Shown here: piece by piece, positions 3,008-53,207 of the stretch | Numbering within the stretch: the stretch's first letter is position 1 | Layout: every line of letters starts with the position of its first letter | Assembly: GCF_002733835.1 (NCBI RefSeq) | Contig: NZ_NVWY01000003.1 | Span: 62,001 to 126,000, forward strand | Direction of reading: 5' to 3' | DNA: 64,000 nt | Source: Alcanivorax sp. | GTDB lineage: Bacteria; Pseudomonadota; Gammaproteobacteria; Pseudomonadales; Alcanivoracaceae | Notes under the pieces: model-generated | Database searches by the model: none | The model's input: only the letters and a program-made list of their open reading frames with translations | Told to the model about the DNA's origin: nothing | Program-made: the position numbers and the translations under genes

Positions 3008-3043
3008 GAGACGCTGCGCGCAACACGCTTGGGGCAACAACGC
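3008..3043 (+). repeat. Heptad repeat array, ACGC type
   Basis: Five consecutive imperfect units of 7-8 bp (GAGACGC, TGCGCGC, AACACGC, TTGGGGC, AACAACGC) beginning 4 bases after the lysA stop codon. Same family as the arrays near 14.35, 14.48, 25.75, 36.26, 37.76, 38.4 and 52.5 kb. Confidence 0.75.
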
Positions 3044-3071
3044 GAAAGCGGCTGGGAGATAGAGTGAACAC

Positions 3072-3109
3072 AAAAAGCCGCGCCAGACGAATGTCGGGGC
3101 GGCTTTTTT
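3072..3109 (+). terminator. Intrinsic terminator after lysA
   Basis: GC-rich inverted repeat (AAAAGCCGC on the left, GCGGCTTTT on the right) with a T-run on the plus strand. It closes the lptM-lysA unit and is nearly symmetrical. Confidence 0.85.
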
Positions 3110-3183
3110 CTGCCGCCGCGAAGCTCACCTGTGGGAGCGAATTTTGTGGTTAACTAGATCCAAAGTGGCAACCTGAAACGGTC

Positions 3184-4173
3184 ATGGCCCGACACGCGCT
3201 CCTGCTTTTTGTTCTCGCGGTTTTTACCGCACCGTCCCAAGCGGCCACGCCACTGGACCAGGCCGTCCGTCTGAGCCTGGCAGAAAACTATGTCACCGCC
3301 GCCCTTCTCACCGGCGGCAATGCCGTACGCTTCGGCTTCTGGGATTTCGATCCCAACAACTACATCGGTTTCGAGGATGAAAACCTGGGTTCACTGGAAG
3401 CCCAGGAACTTCGCCAGCGCCTTACCACCCTGTCCATCCCCTACACCTGGAGCAGGCCACTGGGGGAAGACAGCAATACCCTGGTGCTTGGCGTGAAGGC
3501 CGCTTACCTCGGCCAGCAACAGGAGACCCGACTGGTCAGCCCCGACCAACGCGTGGAGGACAGGATCGACGGCTCAGTGACCACACTGTCCATGGGTGGG
3601 GAAGTCCGTCACCGGATGAATGATCATGTCGGCCTAGCCGCAGGCATGAACCTGCTCTGGCAGCGCTACCGCAATGACACGGATTTCAACACCCCGGAAT
3701 CCCAGGCCCTGGCACCGCTGGCCGATGGGCTGATAACCAACTATCGCGCCAATGCCTGGCAGGCCGAACCCCATGTTCGTGCCACCTGGTTTGTCGACGG
3801 GCGCGGCGCAGAACTGAAGCTGATCAGTGATTTTCACTACATGCATGGGCGCACCTATAACACCGGAGAATCCGCCCACGATGTGCAACCGGAAGCCTGG
3901 TACTGGTCCAACGGCGTCCGCTGGCGCCACCCCTTTGTCACCCGCATACTGTCCGGCCAGAATGTCTGGCTGCAGGCCTCACGGTATGATCTGGGCGGCG
4001 ATCTGGATGGTCCGCTGGGTAACCACTATTACTACGAAGCCGGGGTTGGCTGGTTACTGGACCTGCGAAAAAGGGGAATCCCTTTCGTGGACAACGTGGG
4101 CATCGGCATCAACCTGAACTACGGTAGCGTGCTGCGCGGCGGCACCCTGGTGCTGTTGTTCAACGAGGAGTAG
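3184..4173 (+). CDS. Solitary outer-membrane beta-barrel protein (Omp_AT-like)
   Basis: 329 residues with a clear signal peptide (about 1-20, cleavage near SQAA). The rest is rich in alternating aromatic/hydrophobic strands and ends in a barrel-like segment, which suggests an outer-membrane barrel of the 'solitary autotransporter barrel' type, without a passenger domain. That family name is inferred from length and strand pattern. Substrate and role are unknown. The 3' end overlaps the convergent antiporter gene by 14 bases. Confidence 0.6.
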   Translation: MARHALLLFVLAVFTAPSQAATPLDQAVRLSLAENYVTAALLTGGNAVRFGFWDFDPNNYIGFEDENLGSLEAQELRQRLTTLSIPYTWSRPLGEDSNTLVLGVKAAYLGQQQETRLVSPDQRVEDRIDGSVTTLSMGGEVRHRMNDHVGLAAGMNLLWQRYRNDTDFNTPESQALAPLADGLITNYRANAWQAEPHVRATWFVDGRGAELKLISDFHYMHGRTYNTGESAHDVQPEAWYWSNGVRWRHPFVTRILSGQNVWLQASRYDLGGDLDGPLGNHYYYEAGVGWLLDLRKRGIPFVDNVGIGINLNYGSVLRGGTLVLLFNEE

Positions 4174-5632
4174 TGGCCACTGCTTGCGGCGGGGTCAACC
4201 GCAGTACCTTGATCCCCAGCCAGGCATAGGCTAGCGCCAGCACCGGGTTGATCAGGTTGAAGAACGCATAGAAAAGGTAATCGGTCACCGGCACCAGCAG
4301 CACCGACTGCATGTAGGCTCCACAGGTATTCCAGGGGATCAGCGGGCTGGTGATGGTGCCGCCATCTTCCAGCGCACGGGACAGGTTTACCGGGGCCAGC
4401 CCTTTTTTCTCATAGGCTTCGCGGAACATGCGCCCGGGCATGATGATGGAGATGTACTGATCGGCGGTAAGGATATTGCTGCCAAAGCAGGTCGCCAGGG
4501 TCGCGGTGATCAACCCGGCAGCGCCCTTGACCATCCCCAGCAGCCCCTCGATCAAACGCGCCAGTAGCCCGGCTTTTTCCATGACTGCGCCAAACGTCAT
4601 GGCGCACATGATCAGCCAGACCGTGTTCATCATGGAAGCCATGCCACCGCCTGAGAGCAGGTCATTGAGAGCCGCATCGCCGGCATCCACCGTAACCCCG
4701 GCAAAGAAAGTCTGCCAGATCACCTGCAGGGTCAGCGTCCAGTCCGGGTTGGCTACCCCTGCCTGCACGGCGATGGCCTCCTGCTGAAACAGCAACGCCC
4801 AGACACCACCCACCAGCGCGCCAATGAAAATGGCAGGCAGCGCCGGCATGCGCTTGAGCGCCATAAACAACAACAGCCCCAGCGGCAGCAAGTGAATGAG
4901 GGAAACATGGAATTGGCTTTCCAGCCCTGCCAGCAGGGGCGCAATACGATCCACACCGGTGTCGGGAATGTCCGTATGCATCCCCATCACCAGAAAGATC
5001 AGCAGGGCGATGACAATGGACGGCACCGTGGTCCACAGCATCAGGCGAATGTGCTCGAACAGTTCGGAACCGGCCACCGCCGGCGCCAGGTTGGTGGTTT
5101 CGGACAGGGGCGAGATCTTGTCACCGAAATAGGCCCCGGACACCACTGCCCCGGCGGCCACCGGCAGGGACAGCCCCAGCCCGCTGGCCACGCCGATGAG
5201 CGCCACGCCCACGGTGGCCGCCACAGTCCAGCTGGAACCGATACTCAGGGCAATAATCGCGCAGATCAGGCAGGCCGCCGCGTAGAACAGCGACGGGTTC
5301 ATCAGCTCCAGGCCAAAATAGATCAGCGACGGGACAATGCCCGCCAGCCGCCAGGTGCCAATCAGCGCGCCGACCATCAGCAGAATCAGGATGGCACCCA
5401 GCGCCACCGAGATTCCCTGTACCATGGCGGTTTCGATTTCCCGCCAGGTCAGACCGTTCTTGAACGCGATCAATGAGGCCAGGCCGGCGCAGAACAACAG
5501 GGCAATCTGGTTAGGCCCGGAAGACGCGCTGTCACCATACAGGTACACCGCCGCCGCCAGCAGGCCCACCAACACGACAATCGGCAGCAAGGCATCAAAC
5601 AGGGAGGGACGGCGGTGTCGGGATTCAGTCAT
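4160..5632 (-). CDS. Na+/H+ antiporter, NhaC family
   Basis: 490 residues with about 11-12 hydrophobic helices. The segment GAYFGDKISPLSETTNLAPAV around residues 166-185 is the characteristic NhaC-family motif, and the second repeat carries the matching LEDGGTITSPLIPWNTCG. Family members exchange Na+ for H+ or organic di-acids such as malate for lactate, so the exact substrate cannot be fixed here. Monocistronic and convergent with the barrel gene. The ribosome site upstream of ATG 5632 is weak. Confidence 0.85.
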   Translation of the reverse strand: MTESRHRRPSLFDALLPIVVLVGLLAAAVYLYGDSASSGPNQIALLFCAGLASLIAFKNGLTWREIETAMVQGISVALGAILILLMVGALIGTWRLAGIVPSLIYFGLELMNPSLFYAAACLICAIIALSIGSSWTVAATVGVALIGVASGLGLSLPVAAGAVVSGAYFGDKISPLSETTNLAPAVAGSELFEHIRLMLWTTVPSIVIALLIFLVMGMHTDIPDTGVDRIAPLLAGLESQFHVSLIHLLPLGLLLFMALKRMPALPAIFIGALVGGVWALLFQQEAIAVQAGVANPDWTLTLQVIWQTFFAGVTVDAGDAALNDLLSGGGMASMMNTVWLIMCAMTFGAVMEKAGLLARLIEGLLGMVKGAAGLITATLATCFGSNILTADQYISIIMPGRMFREAYEKKGLAPVNLSRALEDGGTITSPLIPWNTCGAYMQSVLLVPVTDYLFYAFFNLINPVLALAYAWLGIKVLRLTPPQAVATTPR

Positions 5633-5828
5633 GGCGGCAACAGTGGGCGACAGAACGTTCGGTTATACGTGAGCAAGCGCAAGTAAGCACTTACCGCCTG
5701 TACAGAAAGCGGCGCAGTCTACCAGTGCAGCGACAGACCGGCATCACCGGTCGTCGGAGTTTCACTCGGCAAACGGCAACCGAAAACGGCCACACGACAG
5801 GCGCAGCTGGCACCAACAAGACAGCGCG

Positions 5829-6311
5829 TCAGGCGGTATTCGCCAGTGCCTTCAGGGCATCGCCTTCCAGACGGTAGCGCACCCACTCTGACTGGGGGCG
5901 TGCGCCCAGGCCTTCATAGAAATCGATGGCGGGCGTATTCCAGTCCAGTACGCTCCACTCGAAACGCCCGCAATCACGCTCCACGGCCAAAGCCGCCAGC
6001 CGGGCCAGCAGGGCTTTGCCGATGCCCGCCCCTCGCTGTTCCGGCTCCACGAACAGGTCTTCCAGATACAGGCCGTTGCGGCCTTGCCAGGTAGAGTAAT
6101 TGAAGAAGTAGATGGCCAGCCCAACGATCAGGCCATCCTGCTCGGCCACCATGGCATGGGCCGTTGCTCCTTCACCAAACAGGGTAGCAGCCAGCTGCTG
6201 TGCATCGGCCTTCACCTGATCCTCGGCTTTTTCGTAGCGCGCCAGATCACGGATAAGGCGCAACAAGTCCGCCACATCCCCACGCCGGGCGTCTCGCAGA
6301 ACAACGGTCAT
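5829..6311 (-). CDS. GNAT family N-acetyltransferase
   Basis: 160 residues with the acetyl-CoA binding loop RGAGIGKALL (about 93-102). It also has the block YLEDLFVEPEQ before the loop and a C-terminal FYEGLGA, as in diamine-acetyltransferase-like (SAT1-type) members. The acceptor is unknown. The start ATG overlaps the rlmJ stop by 4 bases (ATGA), so it is translationally coupled to rlmJ. Confidence 0.88.
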   Translation of the reverse strand: MTVVLRDARRGDVADLLRLIRDLARYEKAEDQVKADAQQLAATLFGEGATAHAMVAEQDGLIVGLAIYFFNYSTWQGRNGLYLEDLFVEPEQRGAGIGKALLARLAALAVERDCGRFEWSVLDWNTPAIDFYEGLGARPQSEWVRYRLEGDALKALANTA

Positions 6312-7156
6312 TCCGGCGTTTCACCGGTCAGCTGCTTTACCAGGGTATGACCATTGGCATCGCAGAGCGCATCTTTCAATAACGGCATGGCCTGAGCCAT
6401 GTGCTGGGCCAGCGTGTAAGGCGGGTTAATGATCAACATGCCCGTACCGGTCATGCCGCGGCCGGAAGCATCCGGGCGCACGCAGCATTCCACCCGCAAC
6501 AGATTGGGAATCCCCGCTTTCACAAAACGGCGAATAAAGCTTTCCGTGCGGTTGCGGTCCAGCACCGGGTACCAGATGGCATAGGTGGCGGTGGCAAATT
6601 TCTCCATGGCCATTTGCACCGCAGGCAGCACGCCGTTGTAATCCGCTTCCATCTCGTAGGACGGATCAATCAGTACCAGACCGCGCCGATGCTGGGGCGG
6701 CAGCAATGCCTTAAGCCCCTGCCAGGCATCTTCCTTGAGCACCTGCACCCGCTTGTCGTCAGCGAACTCACGCTTGAGCAGGGCAAAGTCAGTGGTGTGC
6801 AGCTCCGTGCACTGCAGCACATCCTGCTCACGCAGCAGGCGGGCGCTGATCAGCGGCGAACCGGGATAGTCCGTCAGCCGCCCCACCGGGTTCAGCTTTT
6901 CCACCAGCGACACATACTGGTCAATCACCCCCACCCCGGTGCGCTTGCCAAACAACCTGGCAATCCCTTCCTGGTACTCACCGGTCTTCTGCATGTGCTC
7001 ACTGGCGATGGCATAGCTGCCTGCACCGGCGTGGGTGTCGTGCACCGTGAAGGGTTTGTCCTTCTTCTTCAGGTATTCAATGATTGCCATCTGCACGATG
7101 TGCTTGAGGACATCGGCGAAATTGCCGGCGTGGTAGCTGTGGCGGTAGGACAACAT
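6308..7156 (-). CDS. rlmJ: 23S rRNA (adenine-2030-N6)-methyltransferase
   Basis: 282 residues from ATG 7156, giving the N-terminus MLSYRHSYHAGNFADVLKH, which matches RlmJ family starts exactly. The frame is open much further upstream but that part has no RlmJ similarity. SAM-binding residues appear in DTHAGAGSY (40-48). The catalytic motif IV reads D164-P-S-Y-E instead of the textbook DPPY, and the position matches the family. It methylates A2030 of 23S rRNA and has been linked to use of DNA as a carbon source. First gene of a pair with the GNAT enzyme. Confidence 0.95.
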   Translation of the reverse strand: MLSYRHSYHAGNFADVLKHIVQMAIIEYLKKKDKPFTVHDTHAGAGSYAIASEHMQKTGEYQEGIARLFGKRTGVGVIDQYVSLVEKLNPVGRLTDYPGSPLISARLLREQDVLQCTELHTTDFALLKREFADDKRVQVLKEDAWQGLKALLPPQHRRGLVLIDPSYEMEADYNGVLPAVQMAMEKFATATYAIWYPVLDRNRTESFIRRFVKAGIPNLLRVECCVRPDASGRGMTGTGMLIINPPYTLAQHMAQAMPLLKDALCDANGHTLVKQLTGETPE

Positions 7157-7215
7157 GACATACATCCAGAATGAGCTGAAAGCGGCAGTGTAGGACAACC
7201 AGCCCTTATGGCAAT

Positions 7216-7240
7216 AAAAAACCGCCCCGAGGGGCGGTTT
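7216..7240 (-). terminator. Intrinsic terminator of the glycine-rich lipoprotein gene
   Basis: Perfect stem AACCGCCCC/GGGGCGGTT with only a GA loop; the T-run is on the minus strand. It lies 29 bases past the lipoprotein stop codon. Confidence 0.88.
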
Positions 7241-7268
7241 ACATTCCTGGCTTCTTGGCGGGGAGCCT

Positions 7269-8870
7269 CTATCTGGACACTCTTTTGCCTGTGCCAGCCA
7301 AGCCTGATTTGGCCATGGGCTCCATGCCACCCACCTCGTCTTCGCCATCGCCTTCATACAACGGGAAAGAACCTTCCGTACGAGAGATGACCACATCGTC
7401 AAGTACCCAGCCACGGAAACCGTTATAAAGCTCATCTTCCGTAGAGAAGACAAAACGCAGCACAACGTCCGACTCACCTGCGTAAGCATCCAGAGAAATG
7501 GGCTCCTGCTGTGCATTGACGGGCGGAGCATTAAAACCCGCATTGGAATAGGGGATTGCATCCCGCTCCAGTGAGGACTCAGGATCGGCCAACGGATTGA
7601 GCCGTGCCAGATTCTCAAAACTGCTGCCGCCATCAGTTGAGACCTGGACCATCATCAGGTCGAAACCGTTTTCATTCGGATTCACCGACTCGATTTCCCA
7701 CCAGGCCCTGAAGCTCAAAGCAAGCGGCACGGATTCTTCAGAGAGATCAATGGAAGGCGAGACCAGCCCTCCCTGATGCTCAGATACGGACAGCCCGCCA
7801 TCATCATTTACACTGCCATCCTGATCTCGTTCACCAATGAAGTTGCCTTGTGTCACATCCCCATACCAGTAAGACACCTGCCCCTGCAGCGCCTGAGGCA
7901 AGGCCCCCGCCGACAGATCTCCGGGGGCAAGCTTCACATAGCTGCCTACCAGATTATTGCTGATTCCATGCCCCGCGTTGAGGTACTGCCAGCGAGTTTC
8001 CGCAAGGCCTCCCTCCTTCTGCCACAGGTCACGAGTTGCAGAATCCGCTTCAAATGTCTCCCGCCAGAGCACGCTCCCCTGATCCTGCTCCGCTTTCTCC
8101 AGCTTGATGTTCACGCCTGCCAGGCTGCCGCTATTGACCTCGATAGCCTGGGAAGAGGTTTGATACCCCGGCGCGACTGCCCGGAGGGTCGACGTGGCCA
8201 GGGTTTCAGCCAGATCCTTGCTCACATTAAAACTCAGAGAGTACTCACCTTCAGCGTTGGTCGTGGTAACCGCATAGGCCCCATTAGTAGCAGCACCAGC
8301 CCCAAGCGATACCTGTGCCCCCTCAATGGGACCCTTATCGTCATAAACCATGCCTGACAACGAACCGACGATTGAATCTACCTCCGTGCAGCTGGACAAA
8401 TCACAACTGATCGGCATGGTGATGGAAAACAGCACGACAGCATTACCCGCCGCGATCTGAACAATGTGATAAACCTGCACGCTATTGTGTGTCAGCTGGA
8501 CAAAGTAAATCCCCGGCACAATTTCACTGATATCCAGCTCACCCTTTTCATCCAGAAACAGTCCAGCCACTGCGCTGAAATCAGGAAACGTGGATGCCGA
8601 AGGAAATGTCAGCCCCGCCGATCCGGCGCTCTTGGCCATCTTGGTTTTCTTGGCCTCGGCTTCCGAAACCAGCTTGATTTCTGCATTCGCCAGAGGCTGG
8701 TTATTGGCGTCCACAAACGCCAGCTTTGCCACGTTCCCCGGAGCGGGATCATATGCCCCGTCACCGCCACCCGAACTATTCCCGGACCCATCACTACCAC
8801 CGCCACCACCACAGGCAGCCAGCATGGCCACCACCGACATGATCAGCAGTCGACTCACCCAGATTCGCAT
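7269..8870 (-). CDS. Large lipoprotein with carboxypeptidase-regulatory-like domain
   Basis: 533 residues from ATG 8870, preceded by a good ribosome site (GGAGAG). Signal peptide with lipobox LAAC (about 16-19), then a glycine/serine-rich flexible linker (about 20-37). A CarboxypepD_reg-like beta-sandwich follows around 160-250 (SGMVYDDKGPIEGAQVSLG, NAEGEYSLSF). The C-terminal 250 residues resemble an immune-inhibitor-A/MAM-like jelly roll (WWEIESVNPNENGFDLMMVQVS, GWVLDDVVIS). I see no HExxH, so it is probably an adhesive or binding surface protein rather than a protease. Function unknown. Confidence 0.7.
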   Translation of the reverse strand: MRIWVSRLLIMSVVAMLAACGGGGGSDGSGNSSGGGDGAYDPAPGNVAKLAFVDANNQPLANAEIKLVSEAEAKKTKMAKSAGSAGLTFPSASTFPDFSAVAGLFLDEKGELDISEIVPGIYFVQLTHNSVQVYHIVQIAAGNAVVLFSITMPISCDLSSCTEVDSIVGSLSGMVYDDKGPIEGAQVSLGAGAATNGAYAVTTTNAEGEYSLSFNVSKDLAETLATSTLRAVAPGYQTSSQAIEVNSGSLAGVNIKLEKAEQDQGSVLWRETFEADSATRDLWQKEGGLAETRWQYLNAGHGISNNLVGSYVKLAPGDLSAGALPQALQGQVSYWYGDVTQGNFIGERDQDGSVNDDGGLSVSEHQGGLVSPSIDLSEESVPLALSFRAWWEIESVNPNENGFDLMMVQVSTDGGSSFENLARLNPLADPESSLERDAIPYSNAGFNAPPVNAQQEPISLDAYAGESDVVLRFVFSTEDELYNGFRGWVLDDVVISRTEGSFPLYEGDGEDEVGGMEPMAKSGLAGTGKRVSR

Positions 8871-9043
8871 AATTCTCTCCATAGAATAGAAACAGACCCT
8901 CTTGCGAGCTGGATTGTAGAGCAGACCTGGGGAAGTGGCAGGCAAGCATTTTCCCTGTATGTCTGTAATCTTTTGCCTACACGAGACTGACGCTATGGTT
9001 TCCAGGCAGTACAATGGCCTTTTAGTCGCACCGGATATTCCGC

Positions 9044-9892: not shown

Positions 9893-9958
9893 CAGGCGAT
9901 TACGAACATCGGCGATGTCAGTGCCGACTGACCCGAATGATGACAAAGGACAGGATTG

Positions 9959-10684
9959 ATGACGGATCAGACTCCAGCCAGCGCCGACCAGGTCGCCGCC
10001 TACCTGCGTGAACATGCCGATTTCTTTCAGCATCGCCCGGAACTGCTGGAACTGTTACGTCTGCCCGATTCCAAAGGCGAGGCGGTATCGCTGCTGGAGC
10101 GCCAAGCGTCGATTCTGCGCGAGCGCAACACCGAGCTGCGCGACCGGCTCAACGGCCTGCTGGATGTGGCCCGGGAAAATGATCACCTGTTCGACAAGAC
10201 CCGCCGCCTGACCCTGTCGCTGCTGGAAGCCCGCGGCGCCGAAAAACTGTTCCGCAATCTCCTCACCAGCCTGAGCACAGACTTCCACTGCGACCAGGTG
10301 GCGCTGATGCTGTACGACCGGGAAGTGCCTATTCTTGGCGACCTGCGCAACCAGATCCGTTGCGTGGACAGCGACGCCCTGCCCAGCGCCCTGAATCACC
10401 TGCTGCGCAGCGGCAAGGCGGTGTGCGGCGCCATGCGCACGGAAGAAATGGAAGCGCTGTTCCAGGACAACGCCACCGACATTCGCTCCGCCGCCATGGT
10501 GCCGCTGGAATACCAGGGTCGCCTGGGCCTGCTGGCCATCGGCAGCAAAAGCGCCATGCACTTCCGCAGCTCCCTGGGCACCCTGTTCATTACCCATATT
10601 GGCCAGGTGCTGAGCCGCCGCCTGCATGAGGTAGTGCGTCAATACCCCCACCAAAACAAGACCAAGCTGACAGTGGACAGCTGA
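9959..10684 (+). CDS. DUF484 family protein (GAF-like)
   Basis: 241 residues. ATG 9959 is preferred over the overlapping TTG 9956; AAGGACAGG just upstream serves as ribosome site. An N-terminal helical part (HADFFQHRPELL) is followed by a GAF-like fold (about 95-225; SAAMVPLEYQGRLGLLAIGS). It always sits between dapF and xerC in gammaproteobacteria, but no biochemical role is established. The last three residues and the stop codon are encoded by a heptad repeat element that runs on into xerC. Confidence 0.88.
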   Translation: MTDQTPASADQVAAYLREHADFFQHRPELLELLRLPDSKGEAVSLLERQASILRERNTELRDRLNGLLDVARENDHLFDKTRRLTLSLLEARGAEKLFRNLLTSLSTDFHCDQVALMLYDREVPILGDLRNQIRCVDSDALPSALNHLLRSGKAVCGAMRTEEMEALFQDNATDIRSAAMVPLEYQGRLGLLAIGSKSAMHFRSSLGTLFITHIGQVLSRRLHEVVRQYPHQNKTKLTVDS

Positions 10685-10749
10685 CAGTGGACAGCGAAAG
10701 CAAAAACCTCTCCCAAGCCACCAACTGCCAACCGTCCACTATCAACGCT
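10668..10749. repeat. Heptad repeat element bridging the DUF484 gene and xerC
   Basis: Four 7-mers, TGACAGT and GGACAGC each twice (10668-10695), are followed after 26 bases by oppositely oriented related units CAACTGC, CAACCGT, CCACTAT (10722-10742). The element holds the DUF484 stop codon, the xerC GTG start and the first codons of xerC. Confidence 0.75.
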
Positions 10750-11631: not shown

Positions 11632-11718
11632 TCCTTGGCGCCTGACGCAGGACACCCAATGCCCGAGGCGAATAAAGCGGTGTGCTGCCATTAACGGTTT
11701 TACGATAAACTACCGTCC

Positions 11719-12426: not shown

Positions 12427-12432
12427 CTGCGG

Positions 12433-13065: not shown

Positions 13066-13134
13066 TTTCATTGGGGCCGGGGTAAGCCGGCAACGGCTCG
13101 CGTTCCAGGGCAACATTCTACGGAGACACCAGCG

Positions 13135-14115: not shown

Positions 14116-14137
14116 ACTGCCTCCAAAAAATAGCGCA

Positions 14138-14346: not shown

Positions 14347-14384
14347 GAGACGCTGCTTGCATCACACTCCACGCAACAACACGC
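14347..14384 (+). repeat. Heptad repeat array, ACGC type
   Basis: Units GAGACGC, TGCTTGC, ATCACAC, TCCACGC, then AACAACACGC. It faces the array at 14473-14507, so the two form an inverted pair about 90 bases apart. Confidence 0.7.
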
Positions 14385-14472
14385 AGAAAGCACTTTTGAT
14401 TTTCAAGATCCGAACCCCGCGTAAAAACGTGAGCGCGGGGCAAGGCGTTTAAAAACCGACAATCAGCGAATC

Positions 14473-14507
14473 GCGTTGTGGCGTGAAGCGTGTTGCGTGC
14501 AGCGTCA
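14473..14507 (-). repeat. Heptad repeat array abutting the hemP stop codon
   Basis: Read on the minus strand: TGACGC (holding the hemP TGA), TGCACGC, AACACGC, TTCACGC, CACAACGC. The array starts with the stop codon of hemP itself. Confidence 0.75.
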
Positions 14508-16367: not shown

Positions 16368-16790
16368 GTGCCACAACACACCATGCATCTTAGCTGGGCC
16401 GCCCACGGCGACCGGGAACATTACCTCTGGCATCTTCCAGACGGCAATGAAGTGCGCGTGGTCGATGGCCACCACGGTCATCAGGAATTCATGGAACCGG
16501 AAGAAGCCTTCCTGGCCGCCCTGGCCAGCTGTCACTTACTCTCGTTCCTCACCGAAGCGGCCCGCGAAGGGCTGTCGGTGGCCAGTTACGATGATGATCC
16601 CCAGGGCGTACTGGGGCAGAACGATCAGGCAAAGATTTATATGCAGACCATGGTCCTGCAACCGTTGGCCACCTTTAACGGTGAGCAACCGGACATCGCC
16701 ACCATTCAGGCCCTGCACCAGCGTGCCCACGAAAAGTGTTTCATCGCCCAGTCGGTGAGAAGTGAGGTGCGGATCGAACCGCGACAGTAG
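16368..16790 (+). CDS. OsmC family peroxiredoxin-like protein
   Basis: 140 residues from GTG 16368 (GGGGAAA upstream); ATG 16383 is the alternative. Both redox cysteines of the OsmC/Ohr fold are present, Cys in LAALASCHLLSFL and Cys in AHEKCFIAQS. Family members reduce organic or lipid hydroperoxides. The SCHLLSF form, rather than the AxCFxxA of Ohr, places it in the general OsmC branch. Monocistronic. Confidence 0.88.
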   Translation: MPQHTMHLSWAAHGDREHYLWHLPDGNEVRVVDGHHGHQEFMEPEEAFLAALASCHLLSFLTEAAREGLSVASYDDDPQGVLGQNDQAKIYMQTMVLQPLATFNGEQPDIATIQALHQRAHEKCFIAQSVRSEVRIEPRQ

Positions 16791-16813
16791 ACCGGCAGTC
16801 GGTCACTGAGCAC

Positions 16814-16846
16814 AAAAAAGGCCGCGTCCAATCGCTGAACGCGGCC
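16814..16846 (-). terminator. Intrinsic terminator between convergent osmC-like and esterase genes
   Basis: Stem GGCCGCGT/ACGCGGCC with a six-base A-run on the left (a U-run on the minus transcript) and CTCTT on the right. Strongest for the minus-strand esterase gene. Confidence 0.85.
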
Positions 16847-16910
16847 TCTTGCCTTTCTGAATCGACACTCGCTCCCGCGAGCTATTCACGGTTCATCATC
16901 AACGACTCAT

Positions 16911-23497: not shown

Positions 23498-23592
23498 GGA
23501 TGCCGAACGCCCGAAGCCGGACGTTAAACCGACGCCAGTTATTTTCGTCTGGCATCCGGCATTGGGCATCCGGCGTTGACCGCAGGGCATTG
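23498..23592. repeat. Heptad repeat inverted pair, GGCATCC type
   Basis: The left arm has GGATGCC, GAACGCC, CGAAGCC, GGACGTT (23498-23525). The right arm has six 7-mers GGCATCC, GGCATTG, GGCATCC, GGCGTTG, ACCGCAG, GGCATTG (23551-23592). The arms are roughly complementary. The element fills the gap between two hydrolase genes. Confidence 0.75.
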
Positions 23593-23657
23593 AGCGTTTC
23601 TGCCATTGCCGGCCCAAACCCGACATTCTTTACTGGGGTTCACCCAAAGGAGGCGGC

Positions 23658-25732: not shown

Positions 25733-25799
25733 GACGCAACACGCTAAAAAATTGCGTTGTTTTTGCATGATGCGTGGAGTGTATTGCGTGCCGCCTCAC
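25733..25799. repeat. Heptad repeat inverted pair after greB
   Basis: Short plus-oriented arm (GACGC, AACACGC; 25733-25744). The longer minus-oriented arm has units GCATGAT, GCGTGGA, GTGTATT, GCGTGCC and GCCTCAC (25765-25799). The right end contains the greB stop codon. Confidence 0.7.
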
Positions 25800-34126: not shown

Positions 34127-34147
34127 TCTAGCGTCTAGCGTCTAGCT
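34127..34147 (+). repeat. Heptad repeat array, TAGC type
   Basis: TCTAGCG twice and TCTAGCT, beginning 8 bases after the ppk1 stop codon and running into the terminator stem. Confidence 0.7.
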
Positions 34148-36224: not shown

Positions 36225-36250
36225 AACCCTCCCCCTCAGGGGAGGGTTTT
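36225..36250 (+). terminator. Intrinsic terminator after trxA
   Basis: Stem AACCCTCCCC/GGGGAGGGTT with a CTCA loop and TTTT. Confidence 0.88.
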
Positions 36251-36253
36251 CCT

Positions 36254-36288
36254 GCTTGCAGCGTGTTACATGTTGCGTGTTGCATGCG
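36254..36288 (-). repeat. Heptad repeat array, ACGC type
   Basis: Plus-strand units GCTTGCA, GCGTGTT, ACATGTT, GCGTGTT, GCATGCG, directly behind the trxA terminator. It opens the 240-base rho leader, in which I see no ORF with a ribosome site. Confidence 0.7.
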
Positions 36289-37756: not shown

Positions 37757-37791
37757 GAGACGCTTCACGCTGCCTGCTTCAGGCAACACGC
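37757..37791 (+). repeat. Heptad repeat array, ACGC type
   Basis: Five exact 7-base steps GAGACGC, TTCACGC, TGCCTGC, TTCAGGC, AACACGC, starting 4 bases after the rho stop and ending at the terminator. Confidence 0.78.
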
Positions 37792-37792
37792 A

Positions 37793-37816
37793 AAAACCCC
37801 GCTTCGGCGGGGTTTT
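37793..37816. terminator. Terminator after rho
   Basis: Stem AAAACCCCGC/GCGGGGTTTT around a TTCG tetraloop; symmetrical, so usable by folA too. Confidence 0.92.
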
Positions 37817-38380: not shown

Positions 38381-38396
38381 TTAAACCTCGCAGCAG

Positions 38397-38453
38397 GCAA
38401 CACGCTTCATGCATCACGCGTGCTGGCGTGTTGCGTGAAGCGTGAGGCGTCTC
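38397..38453. repeat. Heptad repeat inverted pair between thyA and folA
   Basis: Left arm starts GCAACACGC (38397-38405); right arm starts GCGTGTTGC (38426-38434), a perfect 9-bp inverted match. The right arm continues in 7-mers GCGTGAA, GCGTGAG, GCGTCTC, ending at the base before the thyA stop codon. It forms a hairpin inside the thyA-folA transcript. Confidence 0.78.
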
Positions 38454-39287: not shown

Positions 39288-40081
39288 GACTTCACTCCTC
39301 GCTCATCGTTTCGATACGCCCAAACCAGCATGGCAATACCAAGAATAATCATCGGAATGCTCAGCAACATGCCCATGGTCAACCAGCCGCCAGCCAGATA
39401 ACCAATGTGGGCGTCCGGCTCCCGGAAGAATTCCACAAAGGTGCGCGCGCAGCCATAACCGATACCGAACAGGGCGGTCACCGCCCCCGCCGGGCGAGGC
39501 TTGGCCGAATAGATCCACAACACCAGAAACAGCACCACACCCTCCAGCAGCATTTCGTAAAGCTGGGAAGGATGCCGTGCGATCTGCAGTGGGTCGGTGG
39601 GGAACACCATGGCCCAGGGGGCATCACTGGCGCGGCCCCACAGCTCGGCATTCATGAAATTGCCAAAGCGCCCGGTGGCCAGCCCGATGGGCACCATGGG
39701 CACCATGAAGTCCGCCACCTGAAAATACCGTTTGCCGGTTTTGCGGGCGAACAGCCAGAAGGCCACCAGCACCCCGATGGCGCCACCATGAAAACTCATG
39801 CCCCCGGTCCACACCGCAAACAGCCACAGCGGGTCGGCCAGGAACTTGTCGAAATTATAGAAGAACACGTAGCCCAGCCGGCCACCGACGATCACGCCCA
39901 TGGCACCGTAAAACACCAGATCGCCCACCTGATCCCTGGTCCAGCCGGACCCCGGTTGCTTCGCCCGGTACATGCCCAGCAACCAGGCGGCGGCGAAGCC
40001 GAACATATACATCAGGCCGTACCAATGCACTTTCAGGGGGCCGATGGCGAATGCCACCGGATCGATCTGCGGGAATTCCAT
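39284..40081 (-). CDS. lgt: Prolipoprotein diacylglyceryl transferase
   Basis: 265 residues, seven transmembrane helices. The Lgt signature [14 protein letters not shown] (about 138-151) contains the essential Arg and Asn/Glu; the essential N-terminal His-Tyr region appears as HWYGLMY, and GMSFHGG matches the conserved HGG loop. It adds diacylglycerol to lipobox cysteines, such as those of LptM and several lipoproteins in this window. Part of the lgt-thyA-folA run, an order common in gammaproteobacteria. Confidence 0.95.
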
Positions 40082-40937: not shown

Positions 40938-40979
40938 GGAACGCTGAACGCCGGGCGCTCGAGGCCCGATGCTGAAATC
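40938..40979 (+). repeat. Heptad repeat array, ACGC/GCGC type
   Basis: Six 7-base steps GGAACGC, TGAACGC, CGGGCGC, TCGAGGC, CCGATGC, TGAAATC in the divergent gap between the TSUP and NRDE genes. The only array that lies upstream of both neighbours. Confidence 0.65.
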
Positions 40980-41060
40980 CGTCAGGGACCCAACCGTTGA
41001 AACAACAACCCAGCCGCGTTGCTGGCGTCAGGCGTGCGAGAGACAAAAGAAGGAAACCCC

Positions 41061-41871: not shown

Positions 41872-41876
41872 TGCCC

Positions 41877-43310: not shown

Positions 43311-43355
43311 GACTCTCTCCCGGTTTATTGTTTTAACGCCGACACTCTCGGTGTA

Positions 43356-46167: not shown

Positions 46168-46368
46168 GTTGTCTCTTCGAATCCACGCGCAATCGTGGAC
46201 TCTGGCTCCTTGTCAGCCCATTAAACCTTGCCGGGCAACCTGCGATCAATGCACAACCGTGCAACAAACGCACCAAAACAAACGCAGGGAGCCCCGGACT
46301 CAATGAATCCGCCGGTATGACTTGTCATCGGCTTCGCATAAAATGACCCCTTCATTTAAGGAGAGGCC

Positions 46369-47022: not shown

Positions 47023-47034
47023 CCGGAATTGTTT

Positions 47035-48006
47035 ATGCGTTTTCTCTTTATGGCATTACTGGCCAGCCTGTTGCTGGCCTGCGACAAAAACACCAGTGAC
47101 GACGCCGGGTCTGCACCTCGACCAGTCAGTGACGGCGCCCTGACAGAGATTCCCGCTGCACAGTGGCAACAACAGGCTGACGAGCGTTTCACGACCACTG
47201 CAACAGCCTGGCAACAGACACTAACCCGGTTCGAGCAAAGCCCGAACGAGGAAAACCTGACCGCACTGCGCGACGCCCTGGCGCAGTGGTACCAGAGCTT
47301 TGCCAGCCAGTATCTGTTGCTGGCCAGCCGTGCCTGCCAGCAGGACGGGAGCGCTAACCGGCAGGCGACCCTGGCCCGGCTGGACAGCTGGCCGCTATAC
47401 CCCGGCTATCTGGATGCCCTGCCCGAGTGGCCGGAATCCGGGCTGATCAGTGATCCCTATCTGGAGCTGACCCGCCAGAACCTGCGCCGCCAACACGGCG
47501 CCACCGACCCGGCGGAAGCCAGCCTCGGTTTTGCCGCCCTGAGCGTGGTACTCAACGGCACCACCGAAAGCCCCAAAGCGCTGGCAGCGTTCACCGGTGA
47601 AGAAGGCATTCCCGCCCGGCGGCGCCAGTACCTGAAACTGGCCGGCGAACAACTGCTGGCCGACCATCAGCAGCTGTTGCTGAACCGCCCCCTGAACGGG
47701 CTGGCACTGCAATGCGGCCTGATGCAGACCCTGGCGCACTGGCAACAACTGCACGACCTGACCAGCGAACAGGAAGACGGGCTGCTGGTCCCCGCTCTCA
47801 GCCTCGCCGTTAATGAAACCGCGTTGCTCGATGCAGTGCAGGCCATGGATCCCGCTGTTATAGCCCGCTGGGACCAGATCAACCCGGGCATCGCCGGCTC
47901 AATCAAGCAAAGCGAAGAGAAAGGCTGGGCCCCGATTAAAGCCTGGCTTACCACAGTCAGCATCACCCGCCAGATGCCTGACGCCGGCAAGGGCAGCCCG
48001 AATTAA
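47035..48006 (+). CDS. Lipoprotein, possibly imelysin-like
   Basis: 323 residues from ATG 47035. Lipobox LLLAC (about 12-16). The mature part is helical and Gln/Leu-rich. Its size and the segments ALRDALAQWYQSFASQYLL and SLGFAALSVVLNG recall imelysin/M75 proteins, but the HxxE metal motif expected at the second segment is missing. So either a degenerate imelysin or another helical lipoprotein. Co-transcribed with the HAD gene. Confidence 0.55.
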   Translation: MRFLFMALLASLLLACDKNTSDDAGSAPRPVSDGALTEIPAAQWQQQADERFTTTATAWQQTLTRFEQSPNEENLTALRDALAQWYQSFASQYLLLASRACQQDGSANRQATLARLDSWPLYPGYLDALPEWPESGLISDPYLELTRQNLRRQHGATDPAEASLGFAALSVVLNGTTESPKALAAFTGEEGIPARRRQYLKLAGEQLLADHQQLLLNRPLNGLALQCGLMQTLAHWQQLHDLTSEQEDGLLVPALSLAVNETALLDAVQAMDPAVIARWDQINPGIAGSIKQSEEKGWAPIKAWLTTVSITRQMPDAGKGSPN

Positions 48007-48095
48007 GGCGTAATTCGACATTATTCGGCTGAAGATCTTGCGCGGGTAACATCGCCCCAAGAAGGCGGGCGAGCCGGGCCATACGGTAAACACAA

Positions 48096-48131
48096 AAAAG
48101 CCCCGCCGGGCTCTCACCCGGCGGGGCTTTT
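48096..48131. terminator. Strong bidirectional terminator
   Basis: Perfect 15-bp stem AAAAGCCCCGCCGGG with a six-base loop and flanking A/T runs, between the convergent lipoprotein and barrel genes. Confidence 0.94.
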
Positions 48132-48162
48132 ACCTTCCAGACAGACTGTCCGGGAACGGAGC

Positions 48163-48762
48163 TTAGAAGTTGTAGCGGCCGAACACGCCATAGGTGTCAC
48201 GATCGCCACCAACAATGACGCGTGCACCCAGGTCAACCGCCTGGCTTACCTTGAACAGGCCCTGGCCGTAAACGCCCAGGTCATCATCATAGAGATCCTG
48301 ATACGCCAGACCACCGGACAGTTCCAGCTTGTCGGTAGTGGCATGACGCACACCACCACGCACTTCGAAACCGATCTCATCGTCGTTGTTGCCCGGATCA
48401 TAATCACGATCATCATAAATAATGTCGGCGCTGGTCACGAAGTCCAGACCACGCTGCAACGGAGTGTGGAAGCCCACACCACCAGAAATCTGGCTACCGT
48501 CGAGATCACCATTGCGACCATAGTCGCCATCAAAGAAACCCAGGCTACCACGCAGGAACAAGTGCTCATCCAGCGCGAAGGAGCCTTCCGCACTCAGCGC
48601 GTCCACGTCCACATCGTTATCCAGGTCCCAGCGATCATAGGCCAACTGGCCGTAGCTGTAGGAAAAACCGTTATCACGGACGGCGGAAGTTTGTTGCGCC
48701 GCCATGGCCGGGGCAGAAACTGCCAGAGCAATACCTGACACAAGCAATGTTTTCTTAAACAT
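48163..48762 (-). CDS. Small outer-membrane beta-barrel protein
   Basis: 199 residues. Signal peptide 1-21 (APAMAAQQ); about 178 mature residues with eight alternating strands. Asp-rich turns (DLDNDVDVD, YDDRDYDPGNNDDE) and the terminal GRYNF with C-terminal Phe mark a barrel. OmpX/OmpA-barrel size; the acidic loops might bind Ca2+ or metal. No named family recognised. Confidence 0.75.
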   Translation of the reverse strand: MFKKTLLVSGIALAVSAPAMAAQQTSAVRDNGFSYSYGQLAYDRWDLDNDVDVDALSAEGSFALDEHLFLRGSLGFFDGDYGRNGDLDGSQISGGVGFHTPLQRGLDFVTSADIIYDDRDYDPGNNDDEIGFEVRGGVRHATTDKLELSGGLAYQDLYDDDLGVYGQGLFKVSQAVDLGARVIVGGDRDTYGVFGRYNF

Positions 48763-48907
48763 AAATCGTCCTCACTGATATCGAAAAATTCGGCATCCAA
48801 GATGGCCACACTATGTGGTCTTATTGAGCGGTTTGCGTTGTTATGGTTCCGCCTTTATGACGTTTTTATAAAAATTTTCAATGTAACCAGCAATTTATAG
48901 CATGTCG

Positions 48908-48938
48908 TTGACCTTGGGGTTACCCACAGGTTCACAAT
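48908..48938 (+). promoter_or_regulatory. MerR/CueR-type promoter of the copper ATPase unit
   Basis: -35 TTGACC (48908-48913), a 19-base spacer containing the dyad ACCTTGGGG...CAGGT, and -10 CACAAT (48933-48938). The long spacer with central dyad is the mark of MerR-family activation. ATPase start is 48 bases further. Confidence 0.8.
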
Positions 48939-48986
48939 ACAAACTGACATCACCTTCTGGCATCACACCGCGTCACAGGAGCCACC

Positions 48987-51491
48987 ATGCCAATGCCAAC
49001 ACGGACACAGACCCTGCCTGTCAGTGGCGCCACCTGCAAGGGATGCAGCCGCACCATCAACGCGGCACTGGAACAGATTACCGGTGTAGAAAGCGTGACC
49101 GTGGATCTGCATGCCCAGCAGGTCACCGTGACAGGAACCGCCTCCAGAAGCGCTCTTCTGGACGCACTGGTACAGGCGGGTTACGGCACCGACGACGATC
49201 AGCATGATCAGGACGCACACTGTCGCGATAAACCGGAAAAGGCCGCTGTTACCCCCGCCCAATCGGTGCGACTCAGCATCAGCGGCGCCACCTGCGCCTC
49301 CTGTGTGCGCACCATTGAAAATGCCCTGCGCAACACACCCGGTGTCGACAAGGCCGACATGAATTTTGCCGATCGCACCGTTCAGGTCAGCGGCACCGCC
49401 AGCACCGAGACGCTGATCAGCGCGGTAACCGATGCCGGTTATGGCGCCGAGCTGCTGGATAACAGCGCAGATCAGCAGGAACAGCAGGAGGCCCGCGAAC
49501 AGGCCCACTACCACACCCTTCTTCGCCACATGGGGCTCGGGCTTGGCCTGGGTGTCCCGTTGATGGCCTGGGGCTTGCTGGGCGGCGACATGATGGTCCG
49601 CGCCGGGCAAACCAGTCAGTGGATCTGGCTGGCTATCGGCCTGCTTACTCTGGCGGTGCTGGCCACCGCCGGCCGCCACTTTTTTGTCGGCGCCTGGAAG
49701 GCATTTCGAAACCACAACGCCAACATGGACACCCTGATCGCACTGGGCACCGGTGCGGCCTGGCTCTATTCCATGGTGGTCGTCCTGTTGCCCGGCGCCC
49801 TGCCGGAAGCGGCCCGGCATGTGTATTTCGAAGCCAGCGCCATGATCATCGGCCTGATCAATCTCGGCCAGGCACTGGAAGTGCGCGCCCGCGGCAAAAC
49901 CAGCGCTGCGGTGAAACGGCTGCTGGATCTGGGTGCCAAAACCGCGCGGGTGGTCCGCGATGGCGAAGAGCGGGACATCCCCGTGGAGCAAGTTCAGACC
50001 GGCGATATTCTCCGGGTTCGGCCCGGTGAAAAAATCGCCGTGGACGGCACGGTGAAAGAAGGCGAAAGCCGCATCGATGAATCCATGCTCACCGGCGAAC
50101 CCATGCCCGTCAGTAAAAGTGAAGGCGACAACGTCAGCGCCGGCACACTCAATGAAGGTGGCTCCTTGCTCTACACCGCCACCGCCGTGGGCAAAGACAC
50201 CGCCCTTTCACAAATCGTCACGCTGGTAAAAAAAGCCCAGGGTAGCAAGCCCCCGATCGGCCGCCTCGCCGATCAGGTATCGGCGGTGTTTGTCCCCACC
50301 ATCATGCTGATCGCCATCGCCGCCGCGCTGGTGTGGTTCAATGTGGGCCCGGAACCGCGCCTGACACACATGCTGATCAGCGCCACCACCGTGCTAATCA
50401 TCGCCTGCCCCTGTGCGCTGGGCCTGGCCACACCCATGTCCGTAATGGTGGGTGTCGGCAAGGCGGCAGAATACGGCATCCTGATTCGTCAGGGGGAAGC
50501 CCTGCAAACCAGCAGCCAGCTGGACACCATCGTTCTCGACAAGACCGGCACCATCACCGAAGGCAAACCTGCCGTCACCGATATCATCTGCGCAGAGGGG
50601 CAACAGGAAGATACCGTGCTCAAACTTGCGGCCAGCCTGGAAAGCGGTTCGGAACATCCGCTGGCCACAGCGATTCTCAACGAGAGCAAACAGCGAGAAG
50701 TATCGCTGGACGACGTCACTCAATTTCAGGCCCTGAACGGCAAGGGAGTCACTGCCACCCTCAATGGCAAGGCGTATCGACTGGGCAATCGGCGCTGGTT
50801 GGAGAATGAAGGGGTGAACATCAACCTCGACAGCACGCCCCTCACCGACAAGGGCGCCACGCCGCTGTTCTTGTCGGAGCATAAAACCCTGCTCGGCATC
50901 ATCGGTGTCGCGGATCGTATTAAAGACGACTCCAAAGCCGCTATCACCCGGCTTAAGGAACAGGGACTAAAGGTCATCATGATTACCGGCGACATTGCCG
51001 CCAGCGCCAACGCCATTGCCGAACAAGCCGGCGTGGATGAGGTGATGGCGGAAGTGCTGCCGGAAGACAAGGCCAAAAAAGTGCAGGCCCTGCAGGGCGA
51101 AGGCCGCAACGTAGCCATGGTCGGCGATGGCATCAACGATGCCCCGGCCCTGGCCCAGGCGGATGTGGGCTTTGCCATTGGCACCGGCACCGACGTGGCC
51201 ATCGAATCCGCAGCCATCACCCTGATGGGGGGCTCACTGCATGGCGTGGCCGATGCCATGGCGATCTCGTCAGCCACGGTACGCAATATCAAACAGAACC
51301 TGTTTGGCGCCTTTGTCTATAACAGCCTGGGCGTGCCCGTGGCGGCCGGCATACTCTACCCCCTCACCGGCAGCTTGCTCAGCCCGGTGATCGCCGGGGC
51401 CGCCATGTCGCTAAGCTCCGTCACCGTGGTCACCAACGCCAACCGGTTGCGGTTTTTCAAACCCAAACACACGAACGGGACGCCCCCATGA
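48987..51491 (+). CDS. cueA: Copper-translocating P1B-type ATPase
   Basis: 834 residues (called CopA in E. coli, CueA in Pseudomonas). Two N-terminal heavy-metal domains (about 5-70 and 90-150), each with GATCxxC where most have GMTCxxC. Transmembrane ion site C474-P-C476, phosphorylated Asp518 in DKTGT, SEHPLA nucleotide motif, and later-helix motifs [11 protein letters not shown] and MSLSS that specify Cu(I)/Ag(I). It exports Cu(I) from the cytoplasm. Good ribosome site (AGGAG). The end overlaps the methyltransferase start by 4 bases. Confidence 0.95.
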
Positions 51492-52141
51492 CGCCGGAAC
51501 AACTTGCCGCCCAACTACGCCACCCCAACGGCGAGGAAGGCAACACAGTCGCAGACAACATGGATGACCGTAACAGTCCGGTGATTCTCGCCGCCTATGC
51601 GGCATTGGCCCCCGCCGACGGGGACCGGATTCTGGAAATTGGTCCCGGTGGAGCCGGCCACCTTCCCGGCCTGCTGGCGCAGGCGGATAATCTGCACTAC
51701 ACCGGACTGGATGCTTCCCGCGACATGGTGCTGCGCGCCCGGGAACGTTACCTGGGCGAAACCCGCGCCGCCTTTATCCACGGCGCGCTCACCGACGCGC
51801 CCCTGGCGCCCGCCTCCATGGACCGCATCGTTGCGGTGAACGTGGTGTATTTCTGGCAACCGCTCGCACCGGCCCTGCACGCCTTGTTCCTGCTGCTGCG
51901 CCCCGGCGGCACCCTGGTGCTGGGCCTGCGTGATCACAACAGCATGGCCAGCCTGCCCGTATTCCAGCATGGCTTTTCCACCTACCACGGACCAGAGCTG
52001 CAGCACGCCCTGGAACAAGCCGGGTTTATCGACACCACGCTGGCCACCTTCGCGGAAGACAGCGTCAATGTACTCGGCGACACCATGCACAAGCAGTCCG
52101 TCATACTCACCGCCCACAAACCCCGGGAGGCGACACCATGA
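51488..52141 (+). CDS. Class I SAM-dependent methyltransferase in the copper operon
   Basis: 217 residues. SAM loop [16 protein letters not shown] (about 49-64), acidic loop GLDASRDMV, and [19 protein letters not shown] with a [13 protein letters not shown] strand give a complete UbiE-like fold. Coupled by ATGA overlaps to both the ATPase and the cupredoxin gene. The substrate is unknown; a link to copper is inferred only from the operon. Confidence 0.85.
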
Positions 52142-52497
52142 ATATTCTCGTCAATCTGGCCGGCCTGATGTTGATGGCGCTGGTGGTCTGGTGGTTCTGG
52201 TTATCGCGGCGCAAAACCGCCGCACCGTCAGCCACCCACGAAGCCACCATTATTGTCGAAGACGGGGTCTATACTCCGGCATCGATTCGCGCCAACGCCG
52301 GCGAATCGCTAACCCTGCATTTCGAACGGCGCGATCCATCACCCTGCGCGGAGCAAGTAATATTTCAGGGGCTCGACACCAGTGAATTTCTGGAAACAGG
52401 CAAAACCACCACGCTGACACTGAATAATCTGCCGGCGGGAACGTACCGATTCACCTGCCAAATGCAGATGTACCAAGGCACACTGATAGTAGACTGA
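52138..52497 (+). CDS. Membrane-anchored cupredoxin-domain protein
   Basis: 119 residues. One N-terminal transmembrane helix (about 4-22) anchors a periplasmic cupredoxin domain. Candidate ligands are Cys in DPSPCAEQVIF and a Cys-Met-Met set in FTCQMQMYQG, a pattern seen in cupredoxins beside copper ATPases, unlike the His-Cys-His-Met of plastocyanin. Probably receives Cu(I) from the ATPase. The heptad VNTR starts 3 bases past its stop. Confidence 0.85.
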   Translation: MNILVNLAGLMLMALVVWWFWLSRRKTAAPSATHEATIIVEDGVYTPASIRANAGESLTLHFERRDPSPCAEQVIFQGLDTSEFLETGKTTTLTLNNLPAGTYRFTCQMQMYQGTLIVD

Positions 52498-52499
52498 CC

Positions 52500-52548
52500 G
52501 CAACACGCAACACGCAACACGCAACACGCAACACGCAACACGCAACAC
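52500..52548 (+). repeat. Seven perfect tandem copies of the 7-mer GCAACAC
   Basis: An uninterrupted 49-bp array between the cupredoxin stop and the DUF411 gene, 23 bases before that start codon. The purest array of the heptad family, so the most likely to vary in copy number. Confidence 0.95.
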
Positions 52549-52571
52549 GCAAACAATGATGAGGACTTGCC

Positions 52572-53066
52572 GTGAAAAAAATACTGGTTGTTTTAACTAC
52601 CCTGTTGATGGCTGCCTGTGGCGAAGAAGCGACGGCACCGGCAGAACCCCCCTCTGCCGGCCAACCGGCCGCACAGGTAGCAGCCACTGACAAGGTGCTG
52701 GAAGTGTATAAATCCCCCACCTGTGGCTGCTGCGGCGCCTGGGTGGAACACATGGAAGCTAACGGCTACGCGGTCAACGTGCATGAGCAACAGAACCTGC
52801 AATCCATCAAGGAAAAAGCCGGCATTCTGCCCGGCCAGGGCTCCTGCCATACCGCCTTTATCGACGGCTACGCCATTGAAGGGCACGTGCCTGCAGCCGA
52901 TGTGGACCGCCTGCTGGAAGAACGCCCCGAAGGCAAAGGCCTCACCGTCCCCGGCATGCCGGTGGGCTCACCCGGCATGGAAATGGGCGACCGCAAAGAC
53001 GCCTACGACGTGCTGTTGTTTGATGAAAACGGCACCGAGGTGTTCAGCCACCATCCGGGGAATTAA
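52572..53066 (+). CDS. DUF411 family periplasmic metal-binding lipoprotein
   Basis: 164 residues. Lipobox MAAC (about 13-16), an Ala/Pro-rich linker, then the DUF411 domain with YKSPTCGCCGAWVEHMEANG and a second Cys in GSCHTAFIDGYAIEGHVPA. The CxCC site and distal CH are likely copper ligands. DUF411 proteins accompany copper and silver resistance genes (for example CopI-like). Met-rich end PGMPVGSPGMEMG. Confidence 0.88.
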   Translation: MKKILVVLTTLLMAACGEEATAPAEPPSAGQPAAQVAATDKVLEVYKSPTCGCCGAWVEHMEANGYAVNVHEQQNLQSIKEKAGILPGQGSCHTAFIDGYAIEGHVPAADVDRLLEERPEGKGLTVPGMPVGSPGMEMGDRKDAYDVLLFDENGTEVFSHHPGN

Positions 53067-53071
53067 GGAAC

Positions 53072-53207
53072 CTCTAGCTGCGAGCTACCAGCTTCGAGTC
53101 GCGGGAGGGTCTAGCTATAAAGCCTGGGCCCTGCCCGCGACCCAGAAGTGTTTAAGATCGTGCTGTTTTCACTCGTAGCTCAACGCTGGCAGCTCGAAGC
53201 TGCCCCC
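53072..53207. repeat. Heptad repeat inverted pair, GAGC/TAGC type
   Basis: Left units CTCTAGC, TGCGAGC, TACCAGC, TTCGAGT (53072-53099); right units TCGTAGC, TCAACGC, TGGCAGC, TCGAAGC (53173-53200). Between them is a further inverted repeat GTCGCGGG/CCCGCGAC (53098-53105 with 53134-53141). It follows the DUF411 stop by 5 bases. Confidence 0.75.

Follow-up and report, generated by a model that had tools for sequence, protein, structure and literature searches.

A stretch of 64,000 nucleotides from Alcanivorax sp. (RefSeq assembly GCF_002733835.1, contig NZ_NVWY01000003.1, forward-strand positions 62,001 to 126,000; hereafter the window) contains intergenic strings of imperfect units that keep a seven-base step while the unit sequence, or flavour, differs from place to place. 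We conclude that many of these heptad arrays are probably arms of palindromic intergenic elements, ∼60–250 bp long, which form a family located at gene 3′-ends in Alcanivorax and near relatives and seem to have spread by copying. At the level of sequence, the arms can be shown to be inverted, to keep a fixed orientation, to covary and to flank either a common core or some other hairpin; for one subfamily, copies are found at unrelated loci with their ends at the arms. We read the elements as a palindrome family resembling repetitive extragenic palindromes (REP) and miniature inverted-repeat transposable elements (MITEs), and infer their mode of movement and role.

Paired arms and a common core

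A first-pass annotation of the window, made from its letters alone, had noted that several heptad strings form inverted pairs. This is borne out by 89 pairs of neighbouring arrays sharing a gap: 57 are inverted, compared to 14% of random pairs, while 5 are direct, 4 ambiguous and 23 unrelated. Arm orientation, read from outside to inside, is constant in 251 of 261 like-flavour comparisons from 60 elements (one N-containing locus was dropped). The two arms enclose a short loop, a terminator-like hairpin or a core of ∼100 bp. The core has CGCG at either end and a central CCGCGCCC/GGGCGCGG hairpin, and the whole element measures ∼155 bp.

One and the same core is common to 26 aligned elements from four genomes whose arms are built of AAAGTT, CAAGCT, ACAGT, ATAAT or CACGC units (six more of the 32 elements, poorly formed, were excluded by eye). 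In their arms, 71 cells carry a double change, compared to 16.3 in shuffled data and 3–9 when the arms are slid; 96.9% of cells are paired, and changes on both sides occur in 18 of 20 arm pairs over the five flavours. Covariation of this kind shows that the two arms are same-flavoured and able to pair; it does not tell which molecule folds, and related copies are counted repeatedly. Terminal inverted repeats, a criterion for MITEs, are present, as seen from inverted neighbours and arm covariation. The first-pass annotation had called the units unrelated. They are not simply so, because several flavours lie one base apart, forming chains of single-base steps, and five of them share the core.

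Copies of one subfamily at unrelated loci

Relatives were compared within a set of 17 Alcanivorax genomes (G000–G016), of which G000 is the window's own. An ACAGT-armed element of G012 has matches at unrelated loci in G012, G014, G005, G007 and G010, and these matches often start and stop at the arm ends. In a tree of 19 cores, from which that of locus E of G014, the intended twentieth, is absent, the core of G012 locus B groups with that of locus A of the same genome, to which it is 98% identical (tree support 0.965), compared to 74% and 79% identity to its orthologues in G014 and G005. Both orthologous sites also hold an element, with arms of little over one unit in G005; the simplest reading is therefore that the G012 locus-B copy took the place of an earlier occupant.

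Discrete ends and dispersed copies are equally features of classical MITEs, that is, non-autonomous transposons; on this view a transposase encoded elsewhere would act in trans and recognize the heptad arms as its binding sites, and a multimeric protein could bind arms phased in this way. Target-site duplication was not seen by eye in the ACAGT copies, whose ends are blurred by repeats and which have no clean empty site. Moreover, five arm flavours on one core would all have to be read by one transposase. A plasmid search with one element returned no such element, just a 31-base heptad match; the genome as a whole was not searched for an autonomous copy. We consider classical MITEs an unlikely explanation. 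The plasmid match, exact over its 31 bases, is to a GTTAACT heptad array (Gloeothece plasmid NC_011738.1:1688-1718) and is close to the cyanobacterial TAACTGA class. In another stretch (L262), a gene end and the first heptads of an element appear to have been duplicated in tandem.

Y1 (RAYT-type) transposase genes are present in 16 genomes of the genus, with 1–7 genes in each, and G001 has none. At the 13 of 20 Y1 loci that were viewed, REP-type palindromes of several types lie directly beside several of the genes. Heptad arrays are found no more than 450 bp from the gene at ∼4 of these 13 loci (L166, L169, L170 and L174; raw count).

Sites persist while flavours change

The gap between thyA and folA holds an inverted pair in all 14 genomes compared by eye, decayed in G001. 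The pairs of the relatives are of three flavours one base apart: CACGC, GACGC and GACGT. The region matches G012 twice with equal score (C1:28204-29626 and 214410-215832), a probable recent duplication.

Over 160 kb of G012 and G014, arrays were found in both members of 33 of the 79 orthologous gaps, in one member of 9 (at least one of these, gap 50827, is a low-complexity run) and in neither of 37. The flavour label is the same in 21 of the 33 doubly occupied gaps and different in 12; labels were assigned automatically, and some 'different' ones reflect missed arms (e.g. 135725). By eye, both arms differ jointly at 39576, 61525, 119283 and 133416, and at 61525 ∼40 bases at each border are nearly unchanged while the element between them differs. 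In another gap inspected in the same way, G012 and G014 carry ACAGT elements, G010 and G015 ATAAT elements and G007 a two-unit remnant; where G012 and G014 have these ACAGT elements, other palindrome types are found in G005, G000 and G008 and none in G002, the G001 sequence being unclear. When the same regions are compared in close relatives, as the first-pass annotation had proposed, sites prove to be often kept with a changed seven-mer, both in the thyA–folA gap and in the G012/G014 gaps.

Persistence of sites would also be expected of a selected structural element of the 3′ untranslated region that evolves in place by compensatory change, with no copying between loci. Arm covariation, the one-base differences in the thyA–folA gap and the likeness still left between orthologous gaps whose flavours differ (see Discussion) are all compatible with it. 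Against it stand locus B, where a paralogue is closer than the orthologues, the ACAGT copies at unrelated loci and one site whose palindrome family differs between species, and we regard it as quite improbable.

A strict seven-base period and the contribution of slippage

Periodicity was measured as runs of matches at a given lag in 296 gaps (75 kb) from the window and 19 further stretches of G000, with dinucleotide-preserving shuffles as the null model; gene borders came from a simple gene caller, and gap edges are approximate. There were 67 runs at lag 7 versus 2.4 in shuffled sequence, so that the signal is far above the shuffled level. Multiples of seven are raised too (lag 14, 47 versus 1.9; lag 21, 18 versus 2.3), and the remaining lags give 1–11 runs versus ∼1–3. 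In the coding parts of these stretches (335 kb), 14 runs at lag 7 were counted, and the signal is chiefly at multiples of 3. The window by itself yields 11 runs versus 0.6, or 3 versus 0.05 under stricter scoring. A still larger number was found in G012 (138 versus 1.5), where lags that are not multiples of seven give 1–17 runs versus 1–3, the 17 belonging to lag 9. G008 has 15 versus 0.5, and Alcanivorax sp. S6407, whose Rho protein is the closest relative of that of the window (99% identity), 14 versus 0.1; short samples of G001, G003 and G016 contain just 1–2 runs versus 0.1–0.2. The claim of one strict period shared by several flavours is therefore upheld. A general unit formula, xx[AC][GA][CT]xx, is weak given free rotation and was not relied on.

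Tandem seven-base units, as in heptanucleotide simple repeats, are present in the scans of G000 and G012, and the arrays might be plain heptanucleotide satellites produced by replication slippage, their inverted pairs arising by occasional template switching; slippage has been suggested in the literature as the origin of heptamers in many bacteria. Such an origin would account for perfect expansions (7.7 units in one window array; ∼17–18 like units in some arms) and for frequent single arms: those without a visible partner fit slippage or decay. It would likewise account for differences in unit number between orthologues, namely 3 units versus 5 in an arm at 34127 and 7.7 versus ∼5.7 in the array after the cupredoxin gene (window versus G008). 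Units two apart are alike in 399 of 954 comparisons versus 296 ± 13 when permuted, and, according to the introduction of PMC4679880, heptamers outnumber all other classes of long repeat in most genomes. On the other hand, ordinary arms have 3–5 units (228 of 282 arrays) whose variable bases differ from unit to unit, and between adjacent units likeness is, if anything, lower than after permutation (376 of 1317 versus 400.5 ± 13.4). Slippage does not make a shared core or dispersed copies either, and as the source of the arrays we hold it to be unlikely.

The first-pass annotation had favoured a common process such as slippage rather than one mobile sequence. Slippage does act, given arms of ∼17–18 units and species-dependent unit numbers. 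The second half of the proposal is largely wrong for the core elements, because the core is shared and near-identical copies sit at unrelated loci; many arrays appear to be arms of dispersed palindromes with a common core.

Arrays are concentrated just after stop codons

In G000, 33 of the 77 arrays neighbouring a gene 3′-end lie no more than 10 bp from the stop codon, compared to 11.1 ± 2.8 under uniform placement, in agreement with the earlier remark that most strings begin close to a stop. The same holds for 54 of 124 arrays in G012, and the excess over uniform placement is three- to five-fold in these two genomes. Divergent gaps have the lowest array occupancy (5 of 48 in G000, 9 of 38 in G012). 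Dispersed intergenic palindromes, a criterion for REP sequences and REPINs, are present.

One candidate role was rejected. As 7 equals 1 modulo 3, arrays could supply stop codons in all frames; this is not general, because the array covers the stop in only 24 of 97 (G012), 8 of 41 (G014) and 2 of 35 (G000) gene ends with arrays.

By analogy with the omega protein of plasmid pSM19035, which occupies DNA in 7-bp steps, each five-base core of an array might be the site of a regulator. In 99 of 219 imperfect arrays, with ∼73 expected, the two least conserved phases of the unit lie next to each other, which is in favour of such sites. The many flavours per genome, the covarying arm pairs and a location after stops, not in divergent gaps, make protein-binding arrays a very improbable explanation.

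Distribution across genomes

A covariance model of the element matches all 17 genomes of the genus, with 34 to at least 150 matches per genome (the best 150 candidates were scored in each, and both strands of a palindrome were counted). An order-wide search with stricter filters, in which the best 26 candidates per genome were scored, gave matches in 4 of 115 genomes: the window's own, two more of the same family and, weakly, one of another family. Under these filters the same-family genome G125 has no match. Rfam, at its gathering score, has no match in the four sources scanned (the window, L156, L157 and L161), in line with the first-pass view that the arrays belong to no named family. We found no description of such Alcanivorax elements in the open-licence literature, where large result sets were viewed in part only.

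Lag-7 runs are elevated in Halomonas almeriensis (6 versus 0.4), Billgrantia (5 versus 0.4) and G059, a genome of the same family but another genus (20 versus 0.1), with few or none in Chromohalobacter (0 versus 0.3), Pseudomonas sp. GD03858 (2 versus 0.5) and G212 (2 versus 0.4). One heptad pattern was found in 48 of 293 genomes of the order and in 8 of 40 named ones; a long array enters the counts there as several overlapping windows, and the backward control is itself a heptad pattern that scores in some genomes too, so that it is not a clean negative. In several gaps of G059 (L244), GCTTGNA arrays seem to be nested inside AAAGTTN-armed elements. Other units, such as TTCCTTC and CTCGCAC, occur in H. 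almeriensis (L227, L229) and Billgrantia campisalis (L239). The Halomonas and Billgrantia heptads are perhaps the same process in another lineage.

Elements of the window

Heptad-phased strings are visible by eye at all 13 places listed by the first-pass annotation, and at 7 of them a partner arm is also visible. A scripted scan detected arrays in 12 gaps, 10 of which contain 11 of these places. It missed 10668, which spans a gene boundary, and 25733, where the arms are short; at 14347 and 23498 it picked up the partner arm in the same gap, not the listed one. The two extra gaps (5633-5828 and 46168-46368) carry weak arrays.

Two complete elements match the covariance model (R1). The first (14347-14505; match 14352-14503, 60.1 bits, both strands) has CACGC arms and a core with a CCCCGCG/GCGCGGGG hairpin. 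Positions 14347 and 14473, listed as two places, do carry arrays, and both are arms of this one element. The second, with AGCT arms, lies at 53070-53207 (37.9 bits); G008 has a GAGTT-flavour pair there. Weaker model matches are located at 16781-16879 and at 10666-10746 (21.9 bits, E 0.002), the latter at an ACAGT-flavour array on the forward strand (10665-10696) that spans the boundary of two genes and whose orthologous places in relatives carry other flavours.

Inverted pairs lie at 23498-23596 (GACGC/GATGC flavour, left arm by eye; shorter in G008), 25733-25795 (CACGC flavour with a short left arm, by eye) and 40938-41038 (GACGC flavour, right arm by eye). A further pair, at 38389-38450, fills the thyA–folA gap, as seen from the scan, Pfam and the 14 genomes.

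Single arms on the forward strand include a CACGC arm directly after the upstream stop (3011-3039), followed by a terminator-like hairpin at ∼3071-3107 (by eye), and a TAGC arm of 3 units, 5 in G008, upstream of a terminator-like hairpin (34127-34146), for which further relatives have other flavours. After rho, a CACGC arm is fused directly to a terminator-like hairpin (37757-37816; scan, Pfam and relatives compared). A perfect array, (CGCAACA)7.7, follows the cupredoxin stop (52499-52552), with no partner seen and ∼2 units fewer in G008. A lone right-type CACGC arm on the reverse strand (36249-36286; scan and relatives compared) lies downstream of a terminator-like hairpin. The gene labels rho, thyA, cupredoxin and DUF411 agree with Pfam matches. 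Inside a predicted gene, there is a perfect GCAGAT repeat of 5.2 units (54151-54181).

DISCUSSION

Several observations weigh against the heptad arrays being arms of a copied palindrome family. At most 114 of the 282 arrays sit in a detected inverted neighbour pair, single arms are common, and a partner is not visible by eye at 6 of the 13 listed places. At variable positions, true partner arms exceed swapped ones in identity by only a modest margin (0.515 versus 0.435). Short-loop pairs of CACGC and GACGC flavour mostly have no CGCG core (by eye) and could form a family of their own. Among orthologous gaps, even those with different labels resemble each other more than non-orthologous gaps do (mean score 0.12 versus 0.02 ± 0.09), and 6 of the 12 lie above the 95th percentile; this residual likeness could reflect in-place change or conservation of the gap borders no less than replacement. 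No site was found that is cleanly filled in one genome and empty in another (even the closest empty sites differ by more than an insertion), and at the Y1 loci viewed no enzyme could be tied to the elements. Replacement of terminators by arrays was considered and rejected: with a simple finder, other terminators are equally frequent with and without arrays.

With these points taken into account, we still favour copied palindromes for many of the arrays. Elements would spread, and overwrite each other, through copying between sites, many of the target sites already holding a related palindrome; the route may be ectopic gene conversion or REP-like transposition without duplication. Slippage by one or two heptads would lengthen or shorten the arms, and arm-to-arm correction via the hairpin could keep both alike. 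Unpartnered arrays would then represent arms that have decayed or slipped out. A hairpin located directly behind a stop codon would persist as one that is tolerated or useful at transcript ends, either as a terminator or as an RNase barrier. A seven-base unit would let a slipped stem shift register and still pair. A 7-nt polymerase contact favouring seven-base slippage, an idea reported in the introduction of PMC4679880, might account for the step while leaving both core and pairing unexplained.

More tentatively, the elements could represent a class of self-copying palindromes defined by architecture and not by sequence: a seven-base arm code that both arms can swap simultaneously, at sites where a palindrome is retained genus-wide. 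If true, such a class would need a dedicated process that reads or writes DNA in seven-base steps, or hairpin-guided conversion between elements. The Alcanivorax elements as described here bring together two usually separate subjects, heptanucleotide repeats and REP/MITE palindromes. With many arrays per genome and orthologous sites in relatives, the elements offer a test bed for why seven is favoured as a repeat length, and pairing kept while sequence is replaced makes them a useful case for asking whether gene-end hairpins are selected.

Among known systems, REP sequences and REPINs are palindromic, dispersed, intergenic and multicopy, with associated RAYT transposases. The Alcanivorax elements resemble them as dispersed intergenic palindromes in many copies with no target duplication seen, and both kinds occupy one gap in different species. 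They differ in that the arms are heptad arrays, the stems are longer and arm sequence changes with pairing kept, and no RAYT link is established. MITEs of bacteria, for example Correia, ERIC or BOX elements, are likewise short, non-coding and multicopy with terminal inverted repeats; unlike them, the Alcanivorax elements have no seen target duplication or known parent transposon, and their terminal repeats vary between copies.

Among heptanucleotide repeats, those of Calothrix are named STRR. The parts of the sources consulted describe three Calothrix heptamers, and Xanthomonas GGGAATC with kin in Nostoc (PMC4692102), as well as the TAACTGA heptamer of Beggiatoaceae (PMC4679880). As described there, the known repeats share with ours a seven-base period, an intergenic location and, in one case, several units per genome. 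The Alcanivorax unit ACAGTTA reads TAACTGT on the other strand, one base off the Beggiatoaceae heptamer as given. Many single arrays remain that could pass for free-standing direct repeats; the inverted pairs and core elements are not of that kind. Indeed, in those same parts the known heptanucleotide repeats are described as direct (one is indirect in PMC4679880), whereas in Alcanivorax many form inverted pairs joined to a common core.

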